This document shows, in pieces, positions 18,571 to 32,813 of a stretch of 64,000 bases of DNA. Positions within the stretch are counted from its first letter, which is position 1, and every line of letters starts with the position of its first letter. The stretch lies in the NCBI GenBank assembly GCA_009929485.1, contig SAAJ01000005.1, forward strand, positions 1 to 64,000. The letters are read 5' to 3'. Position numbers and translations under genes: made by a program. The DNA comes from Negativicutes bacterium. Lineage in GTDB: Bacteria > Bacillota > Negativicutes > Anaeromusales > Anaeromusaceae. The notes below the pieces were generated by a model. The model was given only the letters and a program-made list of their open reading frames with translations. It searched no databases and had not been told where the DNA came from.

Positions 18571-18649
18571 CACACTCCCCCCAGGTAGGACAGTGAAAAA
18601 CACTTTCCTACCTGGGGGAGCATAGCTGTTTTAGCATGCGGTTCTTTTT
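18548..18649. terminator. large nested bidirectional terminator
   Basis: The outer arms AAAAAGAACCGCATGC (18548-18563) and GCATGCGGTTCTTTTT (18634-18649) match perfectly. The inner arms are CTCCCCCCAGGTAGGA (18575-18590) and TCCTACCTGGGGGAG (18606-18620), with a single bulged C. It ends recD2 on one strand and the integrase remnant on the other. Such a two-storey inverted repeat is much longer than a normal terminator. Confidence 0.85.
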
Positions 18650-19051
18650 CTAGGGCCTCTTTGGTATTGAACGGATCAGTTGATCCATTTTCGTGGCAGC
18701 AATAGAGTCTGAGGTGGACTGTCCATGAAGATAAATAGCTGCAGTTGTATTGATGGTGCTATGGCCCAAACGCTTTGATACATCTGCAATACTAAGACCT
18801 TGGGCTAGTAATAAAGATGCACTAGAGTGACGAAGACCATGAAAGGTCACGTTGTTGGGCAGTTGAGCTCTTTTGCGAAATTTAGGCCACCAGGTGCTGC
18901 AATAGTCTGCTTTGAGCGGCGTCCCTAAGCGGCTAGTGAAGACGCGGCCAGCTTCTATCCATTTATTTTCCAGTAGTTCCCGACAACGTTCCTGCTCGTC
19001 TTTCCAACTTGAGAGTGCGGAAAGAGCGAATTGAGGAATCGATATACGGAC
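18650..19051 (-). pseudogene. C-terminal catalytic fragment of a tyrosine recombinase/integrase
   Basis: The frame, open for about 134 codons from an in-frame stop at 19052-19054, encodes the C-terminal part of a phage-type integrase. FALSALSSWKDEQ and AGRVFTSRLGTPL are followed by VTFHGLRHSSASLLLAQGLS, LGHSTINTTAAIYLH and a short tail. The HxLRH Arg/His pair, the LGHS His and the catalytic Tyr are visible. The N-terminal DNA-binding and arm-binding domains are missing, and no start with a ribosome site exists. A GTG at 18848-18850 would give only a 66-residue piece. This is a broken integrase cut off exactly where the plus-strand specificity-like gene begins. Confidence 0.85.
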
Positions 19052-19826
19052 CTATTTAATAGAGCTTTCAGTAGGAAGCACAACGCAAGTGCAAGTGAGC
19101 GCCTATGAAAGCGATCAAAAGCGAGGCAAAGCTAGAGTGCAAAAAATGTACTGTGCTAAACAGCGTGTCCTGTCCAAAGAAGAGTTCGATGAGCTAGGGA
19201 ATTGGAATGTTGAGCTTTTATGGGCGGAAAAAGATGAGGCGATGGAACAATATCAAAACTCATCTGTGCCAAAAGTGAAGCTAGAAGAGGTTGCGGAAAT
19301 TTTTCGAGGAAAAATGGTAAAAGAAAAGAGCATGGAAGGAAACATTGGGCTCATAAACATTTCAAATGTTGTGGGTGTACATCTTGATTATGCAGCCATT
19401 GACTGTTTTCAGGATGAAATACGAAATGTACTAAAATATGAGCTTGCAGAAGGAGATGTTTTAGTTACCAACAGAGGGACGGCTATTCGGGCAGGGGTGT
19501 TTGAAAAGCAGGATAAAGTATGTATTCCATCAGCCAATCTTACAGCTATTAGGCCCAAAGAAGCGCTGAACGGCAAGTATCTTAGTATTTTTATTGAGAG
19601 TCCAGTGGGGCAAACTCTACTAAAGAGCATACAACGTGGAGCGACTATTTTAAACATCAACCATAAGGATTTATGTGAGCTAATGATTTCCTTGCCTAGC
19701 TTAGAGCAGCAAGAGAAAATTGTTGAAGAATACGAAAGAGAAGCGAAGCTGTACCAAAAAATTACAAAGGAAGCGCAGGAGCGGTGGGAAGCAGCGAGAA
19801 TAAAATTATATAAAGATTTGTATTGA
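19035..19826 (+). pseudogene. N-terminally truncated restriction specificity/N6-methylase-associated protein with one target recognition domain
   Basis: The open frame follows a TGA at 19032 and encodes LIELSVGSTTQVQVSAYESD, then a linker. One target-recognition-like domain follows at about residues 80-245 from GTG 19089 (VPKVKLEEVAEIFRGKMV to LEQQEKIVEEYEREAKLYQK). The final helices resemble the conserved spacer of type I HsdS proteins. Full HsdS has two such domains, and methylase-fused S regions have an N-terminal catalytic part, so this is a fragment. The first possible start (GTG 19089) has no ribosome binding site. It may still be expressed by readthrough, but a remnant is more likely. 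Confidence 0.6.
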
Positions 19827-19878
19827 ACAGAACCGAAGTGTTCAAAAATAAAGTATTTTGGAAAGGTGGCGGTTATCT

Positions 19879-20790
19879 ATGGGGCAGGTTTTAAATCAGC
19901 GTGATTTTTATTATGGAGCTTTTATATTTGCTTTATTGAATAAAAAGATGAAGCCAGCCATTGTAGAGTCTAACGATGACTGTTGTCAGGTCTGTGACGT
20001 GTGGACCGATCAGGGTGACTTTAAGTTGGTTATGAAATATAGCGGCCAAAATAGTTCTCCAGAAGGAGATAGATGGCGTAGGCAATTTACCCTTCAAGAG
20101 CAGGATTTAGAAGAACTGGAGACTGGTTTGGCCCAAGGGAGAAATGTTAAGCTAGCTTTGATTTGCGCAAAAAGCCAGCTTAATGACAGCGAAATCGCAA
20201 TTTTGAATAACAGTGCTATTCGAAATTTGTTGGCGATGGGGAAAAATACTTTCTTAATTAAATTCGGGAAAAACGCCAAAAAAATTGCCATAATAAAGGA
20301 TCGGACAACGGAATTTACGATAACGCGCAATTGGCAGGATGCTTTATTTGAACCAGATCATGAAGAGAAAGTGGTAACAAAAAGACCAAACGAGGAAGTT
20401 CTAAGTGAGCACGAGCTCATGGAACTTGAAAGCGTTACAAACAGCAAACCTGTAAAGTTAATTATTGATTCGCGCTGCTATGTTGTGAATAGCTGGAGAG
20501 ATGCATTTATTAGCTTATGTCGCAGTCTGTGGAAGTGTGATGCAGCTATATTTAGAGAGTTTGCATCAGCCAGCGACTTCCAAAGCAAAAAACGCCGGGT
20601 TGTCCAGTGTGGAGATGCGGGCATGAAAAGAGCAGAACGCATCGGTGGAAACGTATATGTGGAAACCAACTATAGTGCCCAAGAATTTTTGAAATACAGC
20701 AAGCTGATGATAGAAAAATACCAAGATAAATATCAACTTGAAGCGAAAATAGACATTATTTTAGCTGAGGGAATAAGGGATGCTCTGTAA
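19879..20790 (+). CDS. hypothetical protein associated with restriction genes
   Basis: About 303 residues, not confidently assigned. The N-terminal part (NQRDFYYGAFIFALLNKKMK, VWTDQGDFKLVMKYS) resembles a family I recall near restriction or methylase genes, with no known activity. The middle is a mixed alpha/beta region and a second domain begins at about 190 (VKLIIDSRCYVVNSWRDAFI). There are no membrane segments or obvious catalytic motif. ATG 19879 is chosen for AAAGGTGG at 19862-19869. It lies 52 bases after the truncated specificity-like gene and before the hsdM promoter, so it may be the surviving partner of an older restriction locus. Confidence 0.6.
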   Translation: MGQVLNQRDFYYGAFIFALLNKKMKPAIVESNDDCCQVCDVWTDQGDFKLVMKYSGQNSSPEGDRWRRQFTLQEQDLEELETGLAQGRNVKLALICAKSQLNDSEIAILNNSAIRNLLAMGKNTFLIKFGKNAKKIAIIKDRTTEFTITRNWQDALFEPDHEEKVVTKRPNEEVLSEHELMELESVTNSKPVKLIIDSRCYVVNSWRDAFISLCRSLWKCDAAIFREFASASDFQSKKRRVVQCGDAGMKRAERIGGNVYVETNYSAQEFLKYSKLMIEKYQDKYQLEAKIDIILAEGIRDAL

Positions 20791-20868
20791 ATCAACTTCA
20801 AGGTGAACCTTTAATTAAAGACTCTAGAATTTTTTGTATTACAAGTTTGCTTGTTTTTCTGAGGAATT

Positions 20869-20898
20869 TTGGACACCTGAATCGCACTGGTATATACT
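20869..20898 (+). promoter_or_regulatory. promoter for hsdMSR
   Basis: TTGGAC (20869-20874), 18 bases, TATACT (20893-20898). The leader to hsdM would be about 50 bases. Confidence 0.5.
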
Positions 20899-20953
20899 AA
20901 ATAATGTGTAAGTACATTGTTGGAATACTCGGGATTGGAAAGGATTTGGCTTG

Positions 20954-22426
20954 ATGTTGACAGGAGAAGTTCGCAATAAGGTTGATAAAATATGGACTGA
21001 TATTTGGGCGGGCGGGATTAGCAATCCCTTAACCGTCATTGAACAGCTTACGTATTTGATGTTTATCCGCTCTCTTGACGAGAAGGAACTGGAGACAGAA
21101 CGCTTTGCTGCGGTCAGCGGCGAAGAATTGCCCAAATTATTCCCGCAGGGTGCAGAGGGCCAGGCCATGCGTTGGAGCCAGTTTAAGCATCTGGACGCTC
21201 GCGACATTTTCGAGCTTGTTCGGGACAAGGTGTTTCCGTTCATTAAGAATATGCACGGGGAAAAGGAGTCCGCTTTTTCGCGGTATATGGAAGACGCGAT
21301 CTTCCTGATTCCTACGCCCCAGGTACTGCAAAAGGTGATTACCGGTCTGGATGATTTATATGAGCATGACATAAAAGATCTCGATATGAAGGGCGATTTG
21401 TACGAATATATGCTGGGCAAGCTGGCAACAGCCGGCCAGAACGGTCAGTTTCGGACGCCGAAGCATATTCGCGACCTGATGGTCCGGCTGGTAAAGCCGC
21501 TGCCTTCCGAGAAAATTGCCGATCCGGCCTGCGGCACAGCGGGTTTTCTGGTGTCTGCGGCGGAATACATCAGAAGCAGCTACGAGGCGACGATGACCAG
21601 CGAGCAGTGGGAGCATTTTGCGGGGGACATGTTTAGCGGCTATGACACAGACCGGACGATGCTGCGCATTTCCGCCATGAATTTGATGCTCCATTCGATT
21701 ATTAATCCCCGGATTGACTATGTGGACAGCGTTTCCAAGAACAATCCGGCTGCTTCGCAATTTGATGTGATCCTCGCGAATCTGCCCTTCACCGGTACGG
21801 TAGATGCAGAAAGCATCCATGATAATTTGAAGGCTGTGTGCGACACCAAGAAGACGGAACTGCTCTTTGTGGCGCTCTTCCTGCGCCTGCTCAAAAAAGG
21901 CGGGCGCTGCGCCTGCATTGTGCCGGACGGCGTTCTGTTTGGCTCGACCAAAGCGCATAAGGCCTTGCGCAAGGAACTCGTGGAAAAGCATCAGTTGCGG
22001 GCGGTTATTTCCATGCCCTCCGGCGTGTTTAAGCCCTATGCCGGAGTATCGACGGCGATACTGGTGTTCACCAAAACCGGCGCAGGCGGCACAGATAAGG
22101 TCTGGTTTTACGATATGCAGTCGGACGGCTTCTCCCTGGACGACAAGCGTACCGATCTCGGTAATGCAGGCGATATTCCCGATATTATTGCCCGCTTTCA
22201 TAATCCTGCCGGCGAAGCGGACCGCAAGGCGACGGAGCAGAGCTTCCTTGTGGCTAAGGCGGCGATTGCAGAGAATGAGTATGACTTATCGCTCAACCGC
22301 TACAAGGAAACAGTATACGAGAAGATCGAGTACGACGCGCCGGAAGTGATCATGACCCGCCTGGACGGACTCAGCAGCGAGATAAGCTCCAAAATGAAAG
22401 AATTGCGAGGGCTTATCGGTGAGTAA
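20954..22426 (+). CDS. hsdM: type I restriction-modification system methyltransferase subunit
   Basis: A 490-residue N6-adenine methyltransferase. The N-terminal HsdM_N helical domain (VRNKVDKIWTDIWAGGISNP, LTYLMFIRSLDEKE) precedes the SAM-binding motif DPACGTAGFLVSA. The catalytic motif appears as ANLPFTG, a variant of the usual NPPF/NPPY. With HsdS it methylates one strand-specific adenine in a bipartite site and protects the host. The ATG at 20954 is preferred to the TTG at 20951. The gene overlaps hsdS by 8 bases, giving translational coupling in the order M-S-R. Confidence 0.95.
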   Translation: MLTGEVRNKVDKIWTDIWAGGISNPLTVIEQLTYLMFIRSLDEKELETERFAAVSGEELPKLFPQGAEGQAMRWSQFKHLDARDIFELVRDKVFPFIKNMHGEKESAFSRYMEDAIFLIPTPQVLQKVITGLDDLYEHDIKDLDMKGDLYEYMLGKLATAGQNGQFRTPKHIRDLMVRLVKPLPSEKIADPACGTAGFLVSAAEYIRSSYEATMTSEQWEHFAGDMFSGYDTDRTMLRISAMNLMLHSIINPRIDYVDSVSKNNPAASQFDVILANLPFTGTVDAESIHDNLKAVCDTKKTELLFVALFLRLLKKGGRCACIVPDGVLFGSTKAHKALRKELVEKHQLRAVISMPSGVFKPYAGVSTAILVFTKTGAGGTDKVWFYDMQSDGFSLDDKRTDLGNAGDIPDIIARFHNPAGEADRKATEQSFLVAKAAIAENEYDLSLNRYKETVYEKIEYDAPEVIMTRLDGLSSEISSKMKELRGLIGE

Positions 22427-23582
22427 GTGGGAAAAAGTTAAACTTAGAGATGTTTGTGAGATAAATATTGGAAAAACTCCATCGAGAGATAATGTTCTTT
22501 TTTGGAATAATGGCATTTATAAATGGCTGTCCATCTCGGACATGCAAGATAAGTATTTGATTGATAGCAAAGAGAAAATCTCGATGGAAGCAGTCGGGAA
22601 ATGTAACATGAAACTAATCCCTATCAATACTGTAGTGATGAGTTTTAAACTATCGGTTGGGAAAGTCGGTATTTTGTCTGAACCAATGTACTCGAATGAG
22701 GCAATTGCAAATTTTCCTATTTTAAATTGTGAAAAGTTACATGCCAATTTTCTTTATTATGCCTTACAATCATTAAAATTTGAGAATATGGATAGAGCTG
22801 CTAAGGGATTGACCCTTAACAAGGCAAAGTTGAACCAATTAAAAATCCCCCTCCCGCCGCTGGAAGTCCAGCAAAAAATAGCCCAAACCCTTGATTCGGC
22901 AGCGGCATTGATAGCCCTGCGCAAACAGCAGTTGGCGGAATTGGATAATCTGATCAAGGCCGCGTTTTATGAGCTGTTTGGCGATCCGGTGACGAATGAA
23001 AAAGGGTGGGATATAGAACGGCTAGGGGACAAACTGAGTATAGTTAGTGGGTTTGCGTTTAAAAGTAGCGGTTTTCAAAAATCAGGTGTACCTGTAATAA
23101 AAATAGGGAATATTAATCTAGGCACATTTACCGATAAGGAAATGTGCTTTTGGAAATATGATAAAAAGCTAGAAAGGGTTTTGTTGCATCCAAGGGATAT
23201 AGTAATATCGTTAACTGGAACTGTTGGGAAAAATGACTATGCAAATGTTTGCATATTGCCTGAAAAATATCCAAGATATTATTTAAATCAACGGAATGCT
23301 AAACTTGATTTATCAGCTGAATTGGAGTGCTTGTATTTATTGTATTTGCTCAAGGACCAGAAGATAAAGAATCAATTGACGGGGTTAAGTAGGGGGATAC
23401 GGCAAGCAAACATCTCGAATTCAGATATATCAAATCTTTTGGTTCCACTTCCACCTCTCGACCTTCAAAACCAATTCGCCGAAATTGTCACCAAAATCGA
23501 GGAACAGAAAGCCTTGGTCCAAACGGCCATTGATGAAAGCCAATATTTATTTGATAGCTTGATGAACGAGTATTTCAATTGA
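22419..23582 (+). CDS. hsdS: type I restriction-modification system specificity subunit
   Basis: A 387-residue HsdS with two target recognition domains. TRD1 spans about 5-145 (KVKLRDVCEINIGKTPSRDN) and TRD2 about 205-350 (IERLGDKLSIVSGFAFKSSG). Each ends in a conserved helix (PLPPLEVQQKIAQTLDSAAA; PLPPLDLQNQFAEIVTKIEE). TRDs read the two halves of the DNA site and the helices act as a ruler between them. The TRD portions are visibly AT-rich compared with the flanking conserved parts and hsdM/hsdR, as expected from horizontal domain exchange. The GTG start overlaps the end of hsdM. The actual recognition sequence cannot be predicted here. Confidence 0.93.
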   Translation: MSKWEKVKLRDVCEINIGKTPSRDNVLFWNNGIYKWLSISDMQDKYLIDSKEKISMEAVGKCNMKLIPINTVVMSFKLSVGKVGILSEPMYSNEAIANFPILNCEKLHANFLYYALQSLKFENMDRAAKGLTLNKAKLNQLKIPLPPLEVQQKIAQTLDSAAALIALRKQQLAELDNLIKAAFYELFGDPVTNEKGWDIERLGDKLSIVSGFAFKSSGFQKSGVPVIKIGNINLGTFTDKEMCFWKYDKKLERVLLHPRDIVISLTGTVGKNDYANVCILPEKYPRYYLNQRNAKLDLSAELECLYLLYLLKDQKIKNQLTGLSRGIRQANISNSDISNLLVPLPPLDLQNQFAEIVTKIEEQKALVQTAIDESQYLFDSLMNEYFN

Positions 23583-23598
23583 TATGAGGTGATCAACT

Positions 23599-26500
23599 AT
23601 GCCTGCAAATTTTGACTTTTTACAGGGACAAGCTGAGTACCAATTGTTTGCGTCTGCCGCCAGGGAAGCGGAGCAGGTGCTGGCTACGTCGCCGGCGATG
23701 GCGGCAATGGGGGCCCGAAAAGCGCTGGAATTAGCCGTGAAATGGGTGTATTCCGCCGACAACACCATCACTATGCCCTATAAGGATAATTTGCAGGCGT
23801 TGATCCACGAGCCGACTTTCCGCTTTGCCCTGGATCATAACACCTGGGGCAAGCTGCCGTACATAATCAAGCTGGGGAATCTGGCGGTACATACGGAAAA
23901 GACGATACATTACGGGGACGCCTTACTGTCCCTGACAGGGCTTTTCGAGTTTATTCAATGGCTTGACTATTGTTATGGGCAAAACTACGCAGAGCGGCGT
24001 TTTGAGGAAACCCGTATTCCCCAAGGCAAGTTGGTTATAGACGACAGCCTGGTGCAGCAAAAAGAGTCGGAAATTGAACGGCTCTTGGCGCAGATTGCCG
24101 AGATGAGCAATGCCCTGACAGAGCAGAAGGACCAGCACAAGGAAGAAAGAATTTTTACGGCCCAAGACATTTCCGAGTTTCAGACGCGCAAGCGCTATAT
24201 TGACGTGGATTTAAAGCTGCTGGGCTGGGTCTTTGGCGAGGATGTCAAAGAAGAAGTGGAGTTGCCTGGCATGCCCAATAATGCCGGAGTGGGCTATGCG
24301 GATTATGTGCTGTACGGTCAGGACGGTCTGCCCTTGGCCGTGGTGGAGGCGAAAAGGACCTCCAAAGACCCGAAGGTCGGCACCCAGCAAGCCAAGCTGT
24401 ACGCAGACTGTTTGGAAAAAATGACCGGCAGGCGTCCGATCCTGTTTATGACCAACGGCTTTGACACCTATGTGTGGGACGATCTGGCTGCGCCGCAGCG
24501 CAGGGCCAGCGGAATTTTTGCCAAGGCGGATCTGGAGAAGCTGCTGAGCCGCCGGACCCAGCAAAAAGAGCTGGAAACTGTGGTGATTCAAGACGGTATT
24601 ACCGACCGCTACTATCAAAAAGAAGCCATTCGTGCTGTCTGCGGCAATATTAAGGACGGACACCGCAAGTCGCTGCTGGTCATGGCGACAGGCACCGGCA
24701 AAACCAGAACCGCCTCCAGTCTTACCGACGTGCTGTCTCGCGGCGGCTATATTACCAATGCCCTTTTTCTGGCGGACCGGACGGCGCTGGTTAAGCAGGC
24801 GAGAGACGACTTTAAAACGCATCTGCCGGATATGTCCCTTTGCAATCTCTTGAACGGCACTGAGGACAAGAACGCCCGCATCGTATTTTCCACGTACCCG
24901 ACGATCTTAAATTCCATCGACACCGTCAAAACGGAGGAGGGCGGCAAGCTTTTTACGCCGGCTCATTTTGATCTGATTATTGTGGATGAAGCGCATCGCA
25001 GCATATTTAAAAAGTACAGGGCTATTTTTGAATACTTTGATGCCTATCTGGTAGGCTTGACGGCAACGCCCAAAACCGAGGTGGACCGAAACACCTATGA
25101 ATTTTTCGAGATGCAAAGCGGCGTGCCTACGTATGCCTATGAGTACGAAACAGCAGTAAACGAGGATAAGGTGCTTGTGCCTTATCATAATATTGAGGTG
25201 CGCACCAAGTTTCTGGAACAGGGCATTACCTATGATGAGCTTTCGGCTGAGGACAAAGCCCGCTACGAGGACGATTTTACGGACGAAGACGGCAATATGC
25301 CGGACTTTATTCCGTCGCCGGCTCTGAATGAATTTATTTTCAACCAGGATACGGTGGACTATGTGCTGCAGCACTTGCTGGAAAAAGGGCTCAAAGTTGA
25401 TGGCGGCGACAAGCTTGGGAAAACCATCATTTTTGCCGCCAACCATAAACATGCGGTCTTTATTGAAGACCGCTTCAACAAACTATATCCGCACTATAAC
25501 GGGCATTTTGCCCAGGTGATTGATAATCAAATGCCGTACGCCCAAGAACGGATTACGGCTTTTAAGGCAGCGGCAAAATACCCGCAGATTGCTGTTTCTG
25601 TGGATATGCTGGATACGGGTATTGACGTGCCGGAAATTGTGAATCTGGTGTTCTTCAAGAAGGTGCGTTCCAGGACGAAGTTTTGGCAGATGATCGGCCG
25701 GGGCACCCGGCTTTGCAAAGATTTGTTCGGGGCCGGTCAGGATAAGACGTGTTTTTACATTTTTGATTATCTGGGAAATTTTGAATTCTTCCGTCAGAAT
25801 CCCCAGGGGATTGACGGGACTGACGCTGAAAGCCTTACGGAAGGAATCTTTCGCAAGAAAGTCAGGCTGATGGCCCTTTTGCAGCAGAGCGCCTTTCATG
25901 CGGACCCGTACCAAAACTGGCGCAGGGACTTGGTCAGCGAGACGCTTTGGCAGATCCAGGCCCTGAACACAGAGCTGACAGCGGTGAAGCTGCAAAGAGC
26001 GCATGTGGAAAAATATAAAAAAGAGCAGGCTTTCGCCTTTTTGTCTGACGGCGACAAGCACAATTTGAACGAGCATCTTGCGCCGCTGGTTTTTATGGAG
26101 GAAGAGGACCTGTATGCGAAAGTCTTCGATAATTTGATGTATGGCCTGATGCTAGCGCAAGTGGAAGGGCTGCCGCAGTTTGGCAGAGGCAAGAAAAAAC
26201 TGACCGCCATCAGTGTCAGACTGACGGAGCGTATCAATATTCCCCAGGTGCAAGAGAAGATCGAACTGATTAAAACCATCCCCACCGACGAGTTCTGGCG
26301 GCAGCCGGATTTGCTGATATTTGAGCGGGTTCGCGTGGCGCTGCGCGATTTGCTCAAGTTTATCATGGACGGCGAGGGCCAGAGCCCGATTTACACCAAC
26401 CTCAGGGACGACATTCTGGTGGTAAAAGAAGGCGAGCCTTTGTACCAGGCCGAAGACTTTGCCGATTACAAGCTGAAGGTAAACCGGTATATCGAAACGC

Positions 26501-26925
26501 ACAAGGATAGCACGGCTATTTTTAAGCTGCGCAATAATATTCCCCTGACCGCCATGGATTACCAGCAGCTGGAGCATATCTTGACCGGGGAACTTGGCAC
26601 GAAAAAGGACTATGAGCAGACCTTTGGCGAGACGCCCTTCGGGCTGTTGGTGCGGAAAATCGGCAAGCTTGAGCACGAAGCGGCCATGGCGTTGTTTTCC
26701 GAGTTTATTAACGATCAATCCCTGATGCAGCAGCAGATTGTGTTTGTAAGGAGAATCATTGACTATATTGAGCAGAATGGGTATCTGGAGAGCGTGACGG
26801 AACTAATGAGGCCTCCTTTTGACAAACCCGTAAGCTTTGTAAATCTTTTCGATCCGGCCAGACAGCAGCGAATCATAAAACTGGTGACAGAAGTGAAGGA
26901 CAATGCTACACGCGTTGTGGGGTAG
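23599..26925 (+). CDS. hsdR: type I restriction endonuclease subunit with N-terminal DUF4145-like domain
   Basis: A 1108-residue HsdR motor/nuclease. Residues about 1-150 form a DUF4145-like helical domain (AAREAEQVLATSPAMAAMGA). The nuclease domain follows with a PD-(D/E)xK core (GYADYV, then LAVVEAKRTS, around residues 231-253). Superfamily 2 helicase motifs come next: Walker A ATGTGKTR near 364 and DEAH near 462, then TATPK and DTGIDVPEIVN, with IGRGTRLCKD as motif VI. The C-terminal helical part binds the methylase core. The ATG follows a GAGGTGATC site. It looks intact, so the whole system is probably active. Confidence 0.95.
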   Translation: MPANFDFLQGQAEYQLFASAAREAEQVLATSPAMAAMGARKALELAVKWVYSADNTITMPYKDNLQALIHEPTFRFALDHNTWGKLPYIIKLGNLAVHTEKTIHYGDALLSLTGLFEFIQWLDYCYGQNYAERRFEETRIPQGKLVIDDSLVQQKESEIERLLAQIAEMSNALTEQKDQHKEERIFTAQDISEFQTRKRYIDVDLKLLGWVFGEDVKEEVELPGMPNNAGVGYADYVLYGQDGLPLAVVEAKRTSKDPKVGTQQAKLYADCLEKMTGRRPILFMTNGFDTYVWDDLAAPQRRASGIFAKADLEKLLSRRTQQKELETVVIQDGITDRYYQKEAIRAVCGNIKDGHRKSLLVMATGTGKTRTASSLTDVLSRGGYITNALFLADRTALVKQARDDFKTHLPDMSLCNLLNGTEDKNARIVFSTYPTILNSIDTVKTEEGGKLFTPAHFDLIIVDEAHRSIFKKYRAIFEYFDAYLVGLTATPKTEVDRNTYEFFEMQSGVPTYAYEYETAVNEDKVLVPYHNIEVRTKFLEQGITYDELSAEDKARYEDDFTDEDGNMPDFIPSPALNEFIFNQDTVDYVLQHLLEKGLKVDGGDKLGKTIIFAANHKHAVFIEDRFNKLYPHYNGHFAQVIDNQMPYAQERITAFKAAAKYPQIAVSVDMLDTGIDVPEIVNLVFFKKVRSRTKFWQMIGRGTRLCKDLFGAGQDKTCFYIFDYLGNFEFFRQNPQGIDGTDAESLTEGIFRKKVRLMALLQQSAFHADPYQNWRRDLVSETLWQIQALNTELTAVKLQRAHVEKYKKEQAFAFLSDGDKHNLNEHLAPLVFMEEEDLYAKVFDNLMYGLMLAQVEGLPQFGRGKKKLTAISVRLTERINIPQVQEKIELIKTIPTDEFWRQPDLLIFERVRVALRDLLKFIMDGEGQSPIYTNLRDDILVVKEGEPLYQAEDFADYKLKVNRYIETHKDSTAIFKLRNNIPLTAMDYQQLEHILTGELGTKKDYEQTFGETPFGLLVRKIGKLEHEAAMALFSEFINDQSLMQQQIVFVRRIIDYIEQNGYLESVTELMRPPFDKPVSFVNLFDPARQQRIIKLVTEVKDNATRVVG

Positions 26926-27025
26926 AGGGTTTTCTCAGAGTGACGATTTTTCCTGAACCAGCAGTACGCAGTGAAGTGAATTCCAACATGATATGCTGCG
27001 GGAAACAGGCTCTGGGAAATAGAAT

Positions 27026-27058
27026 AAGCCTCTTTCGGATTGTTGCCGAAAGAGGCTT
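27026..27058. terminator. bidirectional terminator between hsdR and hicB
   Basis: AAGCCTCTTTCGG (27026-27038) pairs perfectly with CCGAAAGAGGCTT (27046-27058), loop ATTGTTG. It separates the convergent hsdR and hicB genes. Between hsdR and the hairpin nothing else is seen. Confidence 0.8.
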
Positions 27059-27061
27059 TGC

Positions 27062-27511
27062 TTATGCCTTGAGAGTTTGCTTGCGCTTGGTAATTAGCTT
27101 TCTTTTTTGGGATTCTCGAATTCCCAGCTTGATTTTTAAAGCAGATTGAAGGACTTGTGAAAAGTTGATTTTGCGTTCTTCGGCCAAATCGTTTAACCAT
27201 TTAGGCACGGTAAGAGTTTTCTTTATGGCTCGATTTTCCATTTCATCACGAAAAGGGGGCATGAAAATCTCAACCATAACAATACGCTCGTTATTTTCAA
27301 GTGCAATGCTCAAAAGCTCGGAAGGAGCAGGAATATCGTCACCATCTTGCTCGATTCCATATAAATGGAGGCTTAAGGCATCTTTCGCCATATAAAGAGC
27401 ATCTTCGGTAGTTGCACCGCAAGTAAGGCAACCAGGAAGATCGGGGAATTCTACGGAGATGCCGTCGGAAGCATAATGGAAAACAGCGGGATAAATGTAA
27501 TGATCTTTCAT
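27062..27511 (-). CDS. hicB: HicB family antitoxin
   Basis: A 149-residue antitoxin. The N-terminal HicB fold (YPAVFHYASDGISVEFPDLP, GCLTCGATTEDALYMAKDAL) is a degenerate RNase H-like domain that blocks HicA. The C-terminal ribbon-helix-helix-like part (KKTLTVPKWLNDLAEERKIN, FSQVLQSALK) would bind the operator. The Lys/Arg-rich tail is longer than usual. It lies 22 bases downstream of hicA, the usual toxin-first order. The ribosome site is AAGGAGCC. The pair probably stabilises the adjoining island genes. Confidence 0.92.
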   Translation of the reverse strand: MKDHYIYPAVFHYASDGISVEFPDLPGCLTCGATTEDALYMAKDALSLHLYGIEQDGDDIPAPSELLSIALENNERIVMVEIFMPPFRDEMENRAIKKTLTVPKWLNDLAEERKINFSQVLQSALKIKLGIRESQKRKLITKRKQTLKA

Positions 27512-27533
27512 GGCTTGGCTCCTTTCTTAAAAA

Positions 27534-27728
27534 TCATATTTCAATTCCGGCTTGCTTCAATATAGAAATTTGCGTTTTTACAGGATATGATTTTTTCGGA
27601 TGAGGGACGGTAACCTTGTTTGGCTTTGTAGGATGCTTAAACTGATAATGATCGCCAGTTACATTTACTTCGTACCATCCATCTTCTTTGAGAAGCTTAA
27701 TAATTTCTCGGGATGAGTAACTTTTCAT
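27534..27728 (-). CDS. hicA: HicA family mRNA interferase toxin
   Basis: A 64-residue HicA toxin with a dsRNA-binding-like fold. Typical features are SSREIIKLLKEDGWYEVNVT, then GDHYQFKHPTKPNKVTVPHP with the catalytic His in GDHYQF, and LKQAGIEI at the end. It cleaves mRNA in a ribosome-independent way when free of HicB. The start has an AGAGGAGAG site. Its promoter region carries tandem 13-base repeats that probably are the HicB operator. Confidence 0.92.
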   Translation of the reverse strand: MKSYSSREIIKLLKEDGWYEVNVTGDHYQFKHPTKPNKVTVPHPKKSYPVKTQISILKQAGIEI

Positions 27729-27750
27729 TGCGTCTCTCCTCTCTTTTGTT

Positions 27751-27780
27751 ATTATAACACGTGTTTATAATACGTGTACA
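27751..27780 (-). promoter_or_regulatory. hicAB promoter with tandem 13-base operator repeats
   Basis: On the plus strand, TTATAACACGTGT (27752-27764) and TTATAATACGTGT (27765-27777) are directly adjacent copies with one difference. Read on the minus strand, TATAAT (27751-27756) forms the -10 of hicA inside the first copy. TGTACA (27775-27780) could serve as -35 with an 18-base spacer. Each repeat carries ACGTGT, and the first has the palindrome ACACGTGT. Placement over the promoter fits autorepression by HicB. Confidence 0.6.
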
Positions 27781-28083
27781 GAAAAGGAGATTGAAAGTTA
27801 GTGAGCAACAAAAGGGACAGTAGAGACAGTGTTTTGTCATAGCCTAGCAGGTATTAGGGCTATCTAGATTCGTTGTTTTGTTGTTGTAATCGAAAAGACT
27901 TGTTAGAACTTGACATTTCAATCATATATTATAATCATGACCTGCAGGCTTGAAGATATACTTCAAGCCCCTGCAGAGGATCATAGTAACATAGAAAACC
28001 TGGGTATAAGGAAGCTGAAGAGCTGGCAAACTGCTGGCTCTTTTTCTTATGCCTAAATTTCAAAATGAAAGGATGAAGAAATC
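27781..28083 (+). other. structured non-coding stretch upstream of the DUF932/nuclease gene
   Basis: No gene is seen. TTGACA (27910-27915) and TATAAT (27930-27935) are individually perfect but only 14 bases apart, so the promoter is doubtful. A strong hairpin follows: CCTGCAGGCTTGAAG (27941-27955), ATATA, CTTCAAGCCCCTGCAG (27961-27976). A second hairpin AAGAGC/GCTCTT (28018-28023 with 28037-28042) has an inner GCA/TGC stem and the tail TTTTTC, like an intrinsic terminator. It lies 38 bases before the next start codon. This could be a leader attenuator or a small RNA of the former mobile element. Confidence 0.45.
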
Positions 28084-29271
28084 ATGAAACAAGGTAGAAC
28101 CATTTTTGACTTAGCGGAGGAACTAGAGCGGCAGCGGAGAAACCGCAAGGATTTTGTGGCGGACACGCGGAAGCTGGCGGTCAAGACGAAAGAAGGACAG
28201 AGCTTGTTGCAGGTTGTTTTGCCGGAGGGAGCCGAAGAGTTTGTGGTTAGCGAGCTGATGCATCGGCAATTGGGAGAGCGTCTGCAGATTCCGCAAAAGT
28301 ACTATCAAAAGATGCGCGGCGAAGACCCGGAACTTCTGGATTATAACATTAACCGCTGGTTTATGCAGCAGCCAGCCAGCCGTATGGTGCGCACGCTAGA
28401 TGGGAAAGCCAGAGCCTTTTTATCAGACCGCTATCGGCGGCTGGATAATCTGGAGCTGGCGGACGTAGTTTTCCCGTTCATTAAGGACATGAAAGGGGCA
28501 GACCTGGCGTCCTGCGAAGTGACGGAAAGCCACATGTTTATCAAGGTTATCAATAAACGCCTGCACTATGCCGTAGATCCGCAGAGCGTCCTCTATGCGT
28601 TGCATGGTAGTGCCGTGCATACAATGCATGAGCAGCATACTGATGGCAATATGCTTAGCGAAATTCGTCTAAAGGATGCCATTACCTCCGGCAAATTTGA
28701 TCTGTATGGACAAATTTTAGATAAAGACGAAGGCGTATTGGGGGACTTGAAGGTGACCAGTTCCTATAAAATCATGAAGGCCCTGGGCCGTTATAAGGTG
28801 GACGTGCCAACTGGCCAGCATTACGTAAGTGGTCAGAAGAAAGGACAGATGAAGTACCGCAAGGAATGGCGCGACGATGGCGTGCGCGGCGTAGGGGATT
28901 GGGCGATCCAGCTCAACTATTACCGCATTCTTTTAGAGCAACAGGGCCTTGCAGTTAACCGGATGGTGATTCAGGCTTTATGCAGGGATAGCAGCCTGCG
29001 TATGGCTGCAGAGCGAGGCATCGATCAGGCGGTGTACCTTATTCCGATTCGCCGCATCCGCGATGCTTGGATTTTGCGATACATGCAGAAAAAATCCCAA
29101 AACTTGCAGCAGGCTTTAGCGGAAAAAAGGCTTCCGCCCCGGTGCAGCAGCAAGGAGCGCTGGCATGACCGCAAATGCAAGGATTACTGCCAGGTGGCTG
29201 AGCATTGTCCCTATGGAAAAGTGTTGAAAATAGCCAATAGTGAAGCCAATCAAGAGAGGCCGCCAGCTTAA
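28084..29271 (+). CDS. chimeric DUF932-like / PD-(D/E)XK Cas4-like nuclease protein
   Basis: A 395-residue protein of two unlike parts. Residues 1-160 match the start of DUF932 (phage/plasmid-like) proteins (MHRQLGERLQIPQKYYQKMR, GKARAFLSDRYRRLDN). From about 170 it becomes a PD-(D/E)XK nuclease: HGSAVHTMHE, KFDLYGQ (D206), GDLKVTS (D221, K223) and the QLNYY motif (Q276). A C-terminal cluster of Cys354, Cys365, Cys369 and Cys375 resembles the Fe-S set of Cas4/AddB nucleases. DUF932 proteins are normally about 300 residues, so an in-frame deletion probably fused two neighbouring genes. The nuclease pairs with the downstream annealase. Confidence 0.75.
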   Translation: MKQGRTIFDLAEELERQRRNRKDFVADTRKLAVKTKEGQSLLQVVLPEGAEEFVVSELMHRQLGERLQIPQKYYQKMRGEDPELLDYNINRWFMQQPASRMVRTLDGKARAFLSDRYRRLDNLELADVVFPFIKDMKGADLASCEVTESHMFIKVINKRLHYAVDPQSVLYALHGSAVHTMHEQHTDGNMLSEIRLKDAITSGKFDLYGQILDKDEGVLGDLKVTSSYKIMKALGRYKVDVPTGQHYVSGQKKGQMKYRKEWRDDGVRGVGDWAIQLNYYRILLEQQGLAVNRMVIQALCRDSSLRMAAERGIDQAVYLIPIRRIRDAWILRYMQKKSQNLQQALAEKRLPPRCSSKERWHDRKCKDYCQVAEHCPYGKVLKIANSEANQERPPA

Positions 29272-29321
29272 CTGGCGGTCTTTTGCCTTTCAATGATGTA
29301 GTGAAAAAGGAGAGTGTTACC

Positions 29322-29918
29322 ATGCAAAAAATCGCAAGCAAACTGATTCAAGTTATGGCTGAGTGCAGCCAGATACCCAAGAACGGAGTTAATGATTTTC
29401 ACCATTATAAGTATGCTACCTCGGCAGATGTGCTGGAGAAGGTGAATTCTGCATTGGTGAAGCATAAGCTTGCCTCTGTAGTAACGCCGGAAGTGCTACA
29501 GGCAAGTGAGGTGCTAAACAGCAAGGGAAATGCTGAGCAGCGGGTAACGGTCCGCGTGGCAATTACCCTAGTGGATGCAGAAAGCGGCGAGAGTGTGCTG
29601 CTGGTAGGCTTAGGGAGTGGGCAGGATGTTGGAGACAAAGCCGTGATGAAAGCCCAAACAGCCGCCATAAAATATGCTTACTTGATGAGCTTGGCCATCA
29701 GCACTAACGATGATCCAGAAGCAGACAGCCGAACCGATGAAGGAATGTCGAATGCTCACGGGCAAGCAAAAAATGGAGGGGGAAGCAGCGCTGGGAAAGC
29801 GGCACGTTGCAGCGATTGTGATATGCCTATTACGCCAGGCGTAGAAAAGGTATCGGTGAACAAATTCGGGCGTCCTCTGTGCATGAAATGCCAGAAAAAT
29901 CAGCAGGGAGTAGCGTGA
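29322..29918 (+). CDS. ERF family single-strand annealing protein
   Basis: A 198-residue ERF-type recombinase that anneals complementary single strands in phage and ICE recombination. The family core is MQKIASKLIQVMAE, NDFHHYKYATSADVLEKVN and GSGQDVGDKAVMKAQTAAIK followed by YAYLMSLAIST. A C-terminal zinc-ribbon-like tail has CSDC and CMKC pairs. The ATG at 29322 is chosen for AAGGAGAG. A longer reading would start without a site. The annealase next to a PD-(D/E)XK nuclease forms a two-component recombination module typical of phages, which suits a mobile element remnant. Confidence 0.88.
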   Translation: MQKIASKLIQVMAECSQIPKNGVNDFHHYKYATSADVLEKVNSALVKHKLASVVTPEVLQASEVLNSKGNAEQRVTVRVAITLVDAESGESVLLVGLGSGQDVGDKAVMKAQTAAIKYAYLMSLAISTNDDPEADSRTDEGMSNAHGQAKNGGGSSAGKAARCSDCDMPITPGVEKVSVNKFGRPLCMKCQKNQQGVA

Positions 29919-30074
29919 AATGGTTCGCGTGATGTAGGTAATGGGTTATGCAGTGAATAAAAATTTGGTATAATATAAGCTGTTATAGATGTATATAAGA
30001 CTTTGTTGCGCAATAGATGCTTTTTTAACGAAAAAGGTGTAATGCAGACAGCGGAAGATAAAGGAGGGGCTACC

Positions 30075-31250
30075 ATGTTACCAAATCCCTATACGCCCGG
30101 AGCGGGGTTAGTACCAAGCTATTTAGCAGGCCGAGAGGATACCATGAAAGAAGCGCAGGAAGCCGTATTAAGCCTTGTGCATGGCTTTCCGACTCGATCT
30201 GTGGTTTACTATGGTCTTAGAGGTGTTGGCAAGACGGTGTTATTAAATAAAATTGAAGAAATCGTGGAAGAAAATGAAGTTTTGTATGAGCACATTGAAG
30301 TTTCGGAACGGTCTTCCTTTAAAATGGCCATTTCTTTGCATATTCAAAAGTTGATCAAACAGCTTAGTATCAAAGAACAGGCAAAAGGTATAGTGCAAAA
30401 AGCCTGGGCGGTACTAAAAGCATTTAAAATCACCTATTCGCCAGAAGGAGAAGTTGGCATAGGGATTGATGGTGATATCGTAGCCGCAGCAGGTGTTTCC
30501 GACACCGGGAACTTCCAAAATGATTTGACTGAACTATTTATGGCTATGGGGAATTTAGCTCAAAAGAATGAACGGGCAGTATGCATTTTTATCGATGAAA
30601 TTCAGTATTTAAAAGATGATGAGTTTGAAGCTCTCATTGCAGCGATACACCGCCTAAATCAAAGGGGCCTCCCGGTTGCGCTGTTTGCAGCAGGGCTGCC
30701 AAAAATTGCGAAAATTGCTGGCGATGTGAAGTCTTATGCAGAAAGACTATTTAGCTTCATTTCGATTGATTCGTTGGATCAAGATGCGGCATTGCTCGCA
30801 CTAGTAGAACCTGCTCGAAAATTAGGCGTTACCTATACGGAAGAGGCCGTAAAAGAAATGGTCGCGGTCACCGGAGGATATCCCTACTTTCTGCAAGAGT
30901 ATGGCAAACAGGTTTGGGCGTTCATTAAGGATAAGCAGATTGATTTGGCCGCTGTGAAAGAAGCATATCCTGTCTTTGAAAAGAACTTGGATGAAAGCTT
31001 CTTTAAAGTGCGGTATGACCGAGCTACCCCCAGGGAAAAAGAGTTTATGATGGCGATGGCTGACTGTGGGGAACTACCCTGCTCGATGAATCAGGTGGCA
31101 AGCAAAATGGGAAGCACTGTGAGCAGTATCTCGCCGCTGCGGGGACAGTTGATTTTTAAAGGGTTTATTTACGCGGCACGATATGGTGAAGTAGACTTTA
31201 CGGTACCGCGGTTTAAAGAATATTTGCACCGTGTCAAGGATGCAGAATAG
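30075..31250 (+). CDS. P-loop AAA-type ATPase of unknown function
   Basis: A 391-residue ATPase. NPYTPGAGLVPSYLAGREDT at the start is followed by Walker A YGLRGVGKTVLL near residue 50. Walker B CIFIDEIQYL lies near 180 and a sensor-like region at 210-225. The C-terminal half has a winged-helix-like segment (PREKEFMMAMADCGELPCSM, SSISPLRGQLIFKG). The layout recalls Orc/Cdc6-like or archaeal-type ATPases found in mobile elements, often with an unknown DNA-related role. ATG 30075 is preferred over an upstream ATG because AAGGAGGGG precedes it. There is no partner gene next to it except the truncated gene downstream on the other strand. Confidence 0.75.
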   Translation: MLPNPYTPGAGLVPSYLAGREDTMKEAQEAVLSLVHGFPTRSVVYYGLRGVGKTVLLNKIEEIVEENEVLYEHIEVSERSSFKMAISLHIQKLIKQLSIKEQAKGIVQKAWAVLKAFKITYSPEGEVGIGIDGDIVAAAGVSDTGNFQNDLTELFMAMGNLAQKNERAVCIFIDEIQYLKDDEFEALIAAIHRLNQRGLPVALFAAGLPKIAKIAGDVKSYAERLFSFISIDSLDQDAALLALVEPARKLGVTYTEEAVKEMVAVTGGYPYFLQEYGKQVWAFIKDKQIDLAAVKEAYPVFEKNLDESFFKVRYDRATPREKEFMMAMADCGELPCSMNQVASKMGSTVSSISPLRGQLIFKGFIYAARYGEVDFTVPRFKEYLHRVKDAE

Positions 31251-31262
31251 GCATGGATACAC

Positions 31263-31298
31263 AAGGGGGAGCTGAGCATGTTGCTTGGCTCCCTTTTT
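31263..31298 (+). terminator. terminator after the P-loop ATPase
   Basis: GGGAGC (31267-31272) pairs with GCTCCC (31288-31293), with an inner AGC/GCT stem, followed by TTTTT. Confidence 0.75.
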
Positions 31299-31345
31299 AG
31301 TGCCCGGAGAACGAAAAAACCAGCAGGGAGTGGTGTGAAAAAAGA

Positions 31346-31380
31346 AAAGTAGGCTGGGCGCGTGCCAGCCTACTTTTTTT
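31346..31380. terminator. second terminator, shared with minus-strand remnant
   Basis: GTAGGCTGG (31349-31357) pairs with CCAGCCTAC (31365-31373), flanked by AAA and a run of seven T. The right arm overlaps the end of the minus-strand truncated gene. Confidence 0.75.
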
Positions 31381-31886
31381 CAATCCATTGACGGCCCATT
31401 TCTTCTAAAAGGGCGCAGGCTTTTTCATTTACCTGCAGCGCTATAAACGTGTCGATTTCGCTGCAAATTACAGCAAAGCGGTCTGGCGTGAGCCAAGGAA
31501 GCTCGCCTTTTAGCTCATCGACGACAGCGTAGAGTAAGCGGCGGTTTTCTTCGGGCAGTGTGCTTGCGTTTTCAGCGTAGGCGGCTAGCTGTTCCGGATG
31601 TTCCTGGCAATACCGATCTAAAACGAGAAGCAGCTTTTTGCGGTGATGTTCGTCTTTTTCAAAAGAGGCCAGCTCTTCGAGGGAACAATCAAGAAAGCCG
31701 CCAGTTTCAAAGCAGTCTATTCGGCATTCGCGGATCAGCGTCCGTAACGGCTTGGGCAGAGCGCTGCTTTCTTCTGAGGGTAGGCTTTGGAAATACCATT
31801 CGCAGATATTGGAGGTAACGGCAAATCCATACAAAGAAAGTTCTCTATTTACCGCTGGGTCTGCGGCTAAATAGAAAGCATACTTT
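31370..31886 (-). pseudogene. 5'-truncated gene of unknown function
   Basis: A frame of about 171 codons, open from a TAA at 31887-31889. It starts KYAFYLAADPAVNRELSLYG and ends LLEEMGRQWIEKK. The whole stretch reads like real protein, but no ATG/GTG with a ribosome site begins it. The first usable start is a TTG at 31832-31834 without a site. I do not recognise the family. The body is acidic and helical with no membrane segment or catalytic motif, and Cys residues are present but scattered. Loss of the 5' end at about 31,887 marks a possible edge of the accessory region. Confidence 0.5.
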
Positions 31887-31909
31887 TAACTTGATGGAAT
31901 GGAAAGGTA

Positions 31910-31953
31910 AAGAAAAGCCAGCTTAGGTCATTGCCTAGACTGGCTTTTCTTTC
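31910..31953. terminator. bidirectional terminator of the Met-rich protein gene
   Basis: AAAGAAAAGCCAG (31910-31922) pairs with CTGGCTTTTCTTT (31941-31953). The inner arms CTTAGG/CCTAGA extend the stem. It lies just after the minus-strand Met-rich gene. Confidence 0.85.
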
Positions 31954-31964
31954 GATATGTGAAG

Positions 31965-32333
31965 TTATTGATGTTGAGAATGATCTTCCTGTGGTTTTGG
32001 TTCATGCTTTTGTATCATCTCGTGCATCATCGTGTTCATCATGTCTTTCATTTCCGGATTCTGCATCATTTCTTTCATCAAATCCATCATCATTGGCTTC
32101 ATTTCGGGAGAGGCCATCATTTCTTTCATCATATTCATCATCATACTCTTCATTTCTGGTGATGCCATCATCTCATGCATCATGTGAGTCCTGTGTTCAG
32201 CTGTCATCATAGGACAATTGACAGGAGGAGAGGTAGTTGCTGTAGTTGGAGCGGCCGAAACAGAGACCGTCATGCCAACTAACAATCCAGACAAAATCAG
32301 CGAACGGGTTAACCGGACCAGATATTTATTCAT
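31965..32333 (-). CDS. exported methionine/histidine-rich repeat protein
   Basis: A 122-residue protein. The signal peptide spans residues 1-28 (LILSGLLVGMTVSVSAAP, cleavage likely after SAA or SAAP). The mature part is made of near-repeats of about 20-22 residues with the pattern ASPEMKxMMM and MKEMM, giving dozens of Met and several His residues, ending HEPKPQEDHSQHQ. Met/His-rich exported proteins often bind Cu(I) or Ag(I), or protect against oxidants; this is inference. The ATG has a strong AGGAGG site. It is a single gene closed by a terminator. Confidence 0.8.
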   Translation of the reverse strand: MNKYLVRLTRSLILSGLLVGMTVSVSAAPTTATTSPPVNCPMMTAEHRTHMMHEMMASPEMKSMMMNMMKEMMASPEMKPMMMDLMKEMMQNPEMKDMMNTMMHEMIQKHEPKPQEDHSQHQ

Positions 32334-32813
32334 GGTACATCGCCTCCTAATATAATTGGATTATTTTTCCACAAAAGAATAAATGATTCCTTCTTAAATG
32401 GATGAAAAGTTAAATTAAAATATCTTTTCATACTGGCAGCGACCTTTGACCTTTAAATATTAGGGAGCTTTCCTAATGCCTTACGGCGCTAGTCTGGATT
32501 TTTGAGTTTGACTTTGAGAAAATCGAAAAAAATACCAAAAGAATTTACGAAAAAAATAGACTTGAAGTTTCAATGGAGAAGAAAGTTTCATGCGGAACTA
32601 TAAGAATCGAATACTAAAAAAGAAAAATTACTGAAGATTTTTATAATTTGCAGGAATTTTGTCTTTTTCTGGTAAATTAGTTAGTAGTGGGCAAGAGTAG
32701 GTAGTTCTTTTGGTGTCTTACAAGAAGGTTGTCGAAAAGTGTTAATGAGTGAGGGGGGGCACGCGTCCCTAGCCAGCGAAGCGACAAATTGATTAACTTC
32801 GAGGAGGTAGGAA
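32334..32813. other. divergent intergenic region
   Basis: No coding frame is credible. AGGAGG for the Met-rich gene lies next to its start on the minus strand. A small tandem repeat (GACCTTTGACCTTT, near 32443-32456) might be an operator for it. On the plus side only a loose promoter candidate, TTGCAG (32648) and TAAATT (32673), is seen before the DUF3089 gene, whose ribosome site is GAGGAGG. Confidence 0.4.

Follow-up and report, generated by a model that had tools for sequence, protein, structure and literature searches.

A deletion joins a DUF932 gene to a neighbouring PD-(D/E)XK exonuclease gene in one strain of a Negativicutes bacterium

In the window, by which we mean the whole 64,000-nucleotide stretch of DNA analysed here, a strain-specific island carries a reading frame that starts as the N-terminal part of a DUF932 gene and continues, in frame, into the C-terminal portion of a PD-(D/E)XK exonuclease gene. 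A second contig of the same genome, C100, bears an intact version of this recombination cassette and serves as reference throughout. The features of the locus are:

18550-32609, no strand: strain-specific island carrying the cassette, with type I restriction-modification, HicB/HicA, the fusion gene, ERF and an AAA ATPase
20951-22426 (HsdM), 22419-23582 (HsdS) and 23599-26925 (HsdR): type I restriction-modification genes
27922-27999, + strand: leader element consisting of a promoter-like TATATTATAAT, a covarying hairpin (27943-27975) and a linker; match to model R1
28017-28048, + strand: intrinsic-terminator-like hairpin and T-run, ending the leader and preceding the ribosome-binding site of the fusion gene
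28055-28073, + strand: second rearrangement point, the 19-nt sequence AAATTTCAAAATGAAAGGA; C100 has similar copies before both radC and DUF932, with radC between them
28084-29271, + strand: fusion open reading frame, 395 aa, ATG start, internal stops absent
28084-28565, + strand: DUF932-derived part, residues 1-161, with 87% DNA and 92% protein identity to the intact C100 gene
28564-28565, + strand: deletion breakpoint, with a 2-nt overlap CA common to both parents; 1148 bp absent relative to C100
28564-29268, + strand: nuclease-derived part, with D206, D221-x-K223, Q276xxxY280 and C354/C365/C369/C375; 90% protein identity to the C100 nuclease
29322-29918, + strand: intact ERF-family single-strand annealing protein, 85% identical to the C100 ERF

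The two halves of the fusion belong to different families. Among phage protein families, residues 10-158 match phrog_1362 (E 1.3e-20) and residues 195-363 match the phrog_2139 'exonuclease' (E 1.2e-15). Over its first 168 aligned residues, the protein shares 92% identity with the C100 member of DUF932 (PF06067; TIGR03299-like, phrog_1362), and full-length homologues of the N-terminal half are DUF932 members. From about residue 162 onward, the protein comprises the C-terminal three quarters of the exonuclease. This part contains the acidic-acidic-x-Lys catalytic motif, formed by D206 and D221-x-K223 and invariant across 37 homologues, as well as the QxxxY motif (Q276-LNY-Y280), which is likewise invariant among homologues. 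The earlier note, reading the letters alone, had assigned residues 1-160 to the start of DUF932 and residues from about 170 to a nuclease; both assignments are borne out, and D206, D221, K223, Q276/Y280 and the four cysteines lie where it had placed them.

As a whole, the fusion protein yields nothing above threshold in Pfam, NCBIfam or PADLOC searches. It does not reach the cut-off of the DUF932 model PF06067, and its DUF932 part scores far under the cut-off of NCBIfam TIGR03299. The intact C100 protein matches PF06067 with 35.1 bits (cut-off 23, E 1.6e-8). The model starts only at residue 114 of the intact protein; thus, most of the retained DUF932 half precedes the named Pfam domain, and the retained portion covers only the region before and at the start of this domain.

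The parental arrangement is found on C100, where the gene order is radC, DUF932 (370 aa, PF06067), a 117-aa ORF, a 301-aa nuclease and ERF. Searched against its own genome, the fusion protein matches C100 at two separate places, with 92% identity for residues 1-168 and 90% for residues 155-384; a further match is a distant DUF932 on contig C65. At the DNA level, window and C100 align in two blocks of 87% identity, which meet at a sharp breakpoint at 28564-28565. Of the segment missing from the window, 1144 bp occur once in the genome, on C100, so the assembly has not dispersed this DNA. Lost with this deletion of about 1.15 kb are the C-terminal 201 aa of DUF932, the small ORF and the N-terminal 68 aa of the nuclease. 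A radC - DUF932 - small ORF - exonuclease - ERF cassette gave rise to the gene by deletion, which joined two recombination genes, normally separate neighbours, in one strain. An in-frame deletion between separate neighbouring genes, with a junction somewhere in 28,560-28,600, had been surmised before; the breakpoint falls within that range, the DNA identity on both of its sides supports the deletion, and the genes stand unfused on C100 and at all related loci where both are readable.

In mechanistic terms, one deletion event of about 1.15 kb, whose ends share next to no homology (2 nt), joined DUF932 codon 160/161 to nuclease codon 68/69. The absent 1148 bp are not a multiple of three, yet the two frames meet. 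Since such in-frame joining has a 1-in-3 chance, it provides no evidence of selection. The deletion is probably young compared with the divergence of the two cassette copies, because neither half has stops or excess amino-acid change. Might the genes be unfused in the cell and joined only by an assembly or sequencing artefact? The assembly is a draft in 134 contigs and contains a second, divergent copy of the cassette, which could invite such an error. However, both halves differ from C100 by ~13%, so that reads of the two copies are not confusable, a missing segment at such divergence is found nowhere else in the assembly, and the ORF crosses the junction cleanly; we consider an artefact very improbable.

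Apart from the deletion, the window cassette is devoid of radC, and the leader directly precedes the fusion gene, which is now the first gene behind it. The C100 leader, about 160 bp long, precedes radC, and the window leader is 92% identical to it. Because radC comes and goes among the relatives, present in some and missing in others, either loss in the window or gain in C100 would account for the difference. In a congeneric genome (G001), a DUF932 copy (L044:804-1757, - strand) diverges and ends short of full length. Compared with the C100 copy, it shows 98% identity over the matched C-terminal part but only 91% over the N-terminal part, a split that suggests mosaic exchange between copies.

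The fusion is known from a single strain only. Among 36 fetched loci, comprising 35 genome loci and one viral contig, no fused ORF occurs outside the window, and the genes are separate wherever both can be read. In a survey of 380 Negativicutes genomes, 84 of which match, more than 150 places are listed and at none of them does a match span the junction; the alignments there end at 163-172 or start at 153-157, with few exceptions. No phage and no plasmid record covers 80% of the fusion query, and DNA for the junction peptide is absent from the viral contigs searched. Hence, whether searched separately or together, the halves lead to different families and to no place that spans the junction. 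A widespread full-length architecture would, as the earlier note had pointed out, mark a normal family rather than a deletion; no other fused copy was found. With 0 further copies in the 380 class genomes, phages, plasmids, viral contigs and 35 genome loci, the chance that the gene represents a normal, stable two-domain family is practically negligible.

The earlier statement that the catalytic half keeps all visible key residues holds for the catalytic residues and the C-terminal Cys4 cluster. It does not hold for the 68 lost N-terminal residues, which contain a second Cys4 cluster (C8, C19, C23, and C29) and a conserved helix. The lost stretch further includes RCMFLPTLR..A.S..R......VTEL..G.RETYLKK, and the lost residues are invariant or nearly so in 24-37 homologues (the intact set holds 37 sequences, 34 of them distinct without copies from the window's own genome). 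Thus, the N-terminal Cys4 unit and the VTEL..G.RETYLKK helix of the phrog_2139-like family are deleted in the fusion.

Structure predictions place this loss within the nuclease fold. In the model of an intact homologue, residues 45-258 overlie Cas4 residues 6-178 (7mi5, Z 7.0), and in this comparison of models the VTEL..G.RETYLKK helix overlies Cas4 residues 6-35. The chimera model overlies Cas4 only from residue 35 (7mi5, Z 5.8) or residue 36 (7mi4, Z 6.4), which indicates that, besides the N-terminal Cys4, a helix at the N-terminus of the nuclease fold proper has been lost. In the structural comparison, Cas4, MGME1, EXO5, RecE, and lambda exonuclease (7mi5, 8d3l, 8xa9, 7lw7, 3h4r, 1avq) rank highest for the intact family, and the best rows of the ranking belong almost entirely to this superfamily. 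As the best Z of 7.0 was obtained on a poor model (pLDDT 51), we base what is said of the fold on how consistent the ranking is and not on Z alone; Cas4-like is a fair description of the predicted fold. Overall, model confidence is low to middling, with mean pLDDT of 51 and 65, and drops to block means of 25-47 in the junction region of the chimera (residues 159-209). Foldseek returns no match for the chimera at E<0.001. A sequence profile search against solved structures gave chance matches only, which were rejected.

We therefore read the gene as a deletion of the parental cassette whose fused product most likely functions neither as a DUF932 protein nor as a nuclease, or does so only with severe impairment (probability roughly 0.8), because over half of DUF932 is gone and so is the N-terminal Cys4/helix unit of the nuclease, which is strictly conserved. 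The loss of activity is inferred from conservation and from the low-confidence models. The idea that the chimera may still act with the adjacent ERF is weak, given that the conserved 68 nuclease residues and the 201 C-terminal DUF932 residues are gone. Evidence cutting against inactivity is the lack of a stop or frameshift in either half and the retention of most near-invariant catalytic columns; an open frame and kept catalytic columns would also be expected were the fusion useful. The protein is probably made, because the promoter/leader and the ribosome-binding site look intact.

Compared with C100, dN/dS (NG86) is about 0.04 for the DUF932 part and about 0.05 for the nuclease part, which points to strong past purifying selection, although most of this signal dates from before the deletion. 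When homologues are used to polarise the amino-acid changes, the window branch has 2 vs 5 in the DUF932 part and 11 vs 14 in the nuclease part. Without excess changes on the window branch, the fusion is either recent or constrained, and one genome cannot separate the two.

Retention of the catalytic D/D-x-K, the QxxxY motif and the C-terminal Cys4, together with an open frame, an intact promoter region and no detected relaxation of constraint, would also fit a working neo-enzyme. Here, the OB-fold-like domain of DUF932 would replace the N-terminal Cys4/helix unit of the nuclease and load the protein on single-stranded DNA beside ERF. DUF932 residues 10-117 indeed resemble RPA-type OB folds in the model (3u50, Z 7.1). 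However, this match is modest and OB folds are common. Moreover, the unit that was lost shows little or no variation across all homologues and overlies a portion of the Cas4 fold itself, the junction segment is modelled at very low confidence, and the fusion is unique to one genome, which together make a working enzyme improbable.

A protein without nuclease activity could still serve as a dominant regulator or decoy, for instance if the DUF932 N-terminal fragment bound its partners. The N-terminal domain is well predicted (block pLDDT about 77-90 over residues 21-100 of the chimera), and the shortened DUF932 of the congeneric genome (317 aa, L044:804-1757) also persists. Such a role is nonetheless unlikely, as neither a partner nor a phenotype lends it support and the congeneric truncation is equally well explained by decay.

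The fusion, most likely inactive or impaired, is a single case of cassette decay in which the parent, the breakpoint, and the lost and surviving parts can all be named. It also demonstrates that concluding from the presence of all catalytic residues that an enzyme works is unsafe.

The comparison also brings to light a recombination cassette that is widespread and includes a Cas4/RecE-like exonuclease not yet characterised. As judged from the families involved, the intact cassette would work like a RecE/RecT or lambda Exo/Beta pair: the Cas4/RecE-like exonuclease would resect DNA ends and ERF would anneal the exposed strand, while DUF932, with its OB-fold-like N-terminal domain, and RadC would act as accessory factors. 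In this manner, the cassette may help mobile elements and defence islands to recombine. In the window, the intact ERF (65.5 bits against PF04404, cut-off 25) could still have strands to anneal wherever host nucleases, or the intact nuclease encoded on C100, carry out the resection. Our literature search found no paper joining DUF932 with an exonuclease and ERF. With RecE-RecT, lambda Exo-Beta, and Exo-ERF modules the cassette shares an exonuclease gene followed by an annealase gene (ERF) in the same direction, a likeness of gene order only. In contrast to these modules, it adds DUF932, a small ORF, and a mobile radC, and in the window its exonuclease is broken by the fusion.

The intact exonuclease family (L005:4436-5341, - strand, with homologues in L008-L043) displays two near-invariant Cys4 clusters around a Cas4/RecE-like core, possibly two metal or Fe-S sites. 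Its D, D-x-K, and QxxxY motifs and C-terminal Cys cluster resemble the Cas4/RecE/lambda-Exo/MGME1/EXO5 branch, although the family has no Pfam match at threshold. In Cas4, the cysteine ligands of the 4Fe-4S cluster follow a 1+3 pattern. The intact family differs in having an N-terminal and a C-terminal cluster (4+4). Its likeness to Cas4 proper is claimed for the fold only, as the neighbours here are DUF932, ERF, and radC and not cas1/cas2.

Together with this Cys-rich exonuclease family, the leader is a lead beyond the fusion, and more novel than the fusion itself. Positions 27922-27999 align to regions before DUF932 or radC in many relatives (L024:3653-3731, L041:3669-3747, L020:3294-3376, and others). 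The 13-pair hairpin is kept with compensatory changes, with a covariation of 0.403 vs at most 0.106 and 38 double-changed cells vs at most 7 in slid controls, values obtained on an alignment fitted to the structure and thereby biased in its favour. The same pairs are predicted on the unfitted alignment, where 7 of 13 show double changes. A covariance model of the leader finds matches in 17 of 200 class genomes and 15 of 82 genera. DUF932 or radC follows 20 of 25 matches, while the other readable ones precede, by eye, HTH regulators or an AAA ATPase-like or resolvase-like protein. An intrinsic terminator stands after the leader in 28 of 31 cases, a total that includes a few loci twice, once from each of two collections, vs 1.8% of shuffled controls.

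On balance, we lean slightly toward the leader being an undescribed riboregulator across Negativicutes that lies directly before radC or DUF932 and controls when the recombination genes switch on. It could act as an attenuator or give rise to a small RNA; compensated changes in the sequence of the stem itself make an operator palindrome less likely. No Rfam family matches the leaders. PrrF (E 1), NsiR1 (E 0.8), SpF11 (E 0.19), and FTHFS (E 0.029) appeared near the leader with scores far below Rfam gathering scores and were rejected. The radC RNA motif RF01754, reported from Proteobacteria (PMC2864571), is also a structured leader before radC-type genes, but it is a different element, as the Rfam models do not match the leaders described here.

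The island from ~18550 to 32609 is flanked by a RecD-like helicase gene on one side and by conserved DNA on the downstream side; it is absent from a same-species genome, which has 1.05 kb of unrelated DNA instead. Copies of the cassette lie in mobile or defence regions, with type I restriction-modification as neighbour in the window, BREX on C100 and Gabija in Sporomusa silvacetica (L008); at L010 the neighbour is a methyltransferase/HsdR-like protein. The 113 flanking proteins of the relatives are diverse and also include integrases, resolvases, polymerases, and housekeeping genes, so we claim no defence enrichment. The second, intact copy (L005 and L064, contig C100) adjoins BREX genes, of which BrxL is identified by Pfam and the others by eye; one genome thus carries two cassette copies in two different defence islands. 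Directly upstream of the window cassette, on the opposite strand, lies a HicB-like antitoxin and HicA toxin pair (27062-27728, - strand). Upstream of hsdM, a half-length type I specificity subunit (19089-19826) is present besides the complete HsdS and could be a silent cassette for specificity switching.
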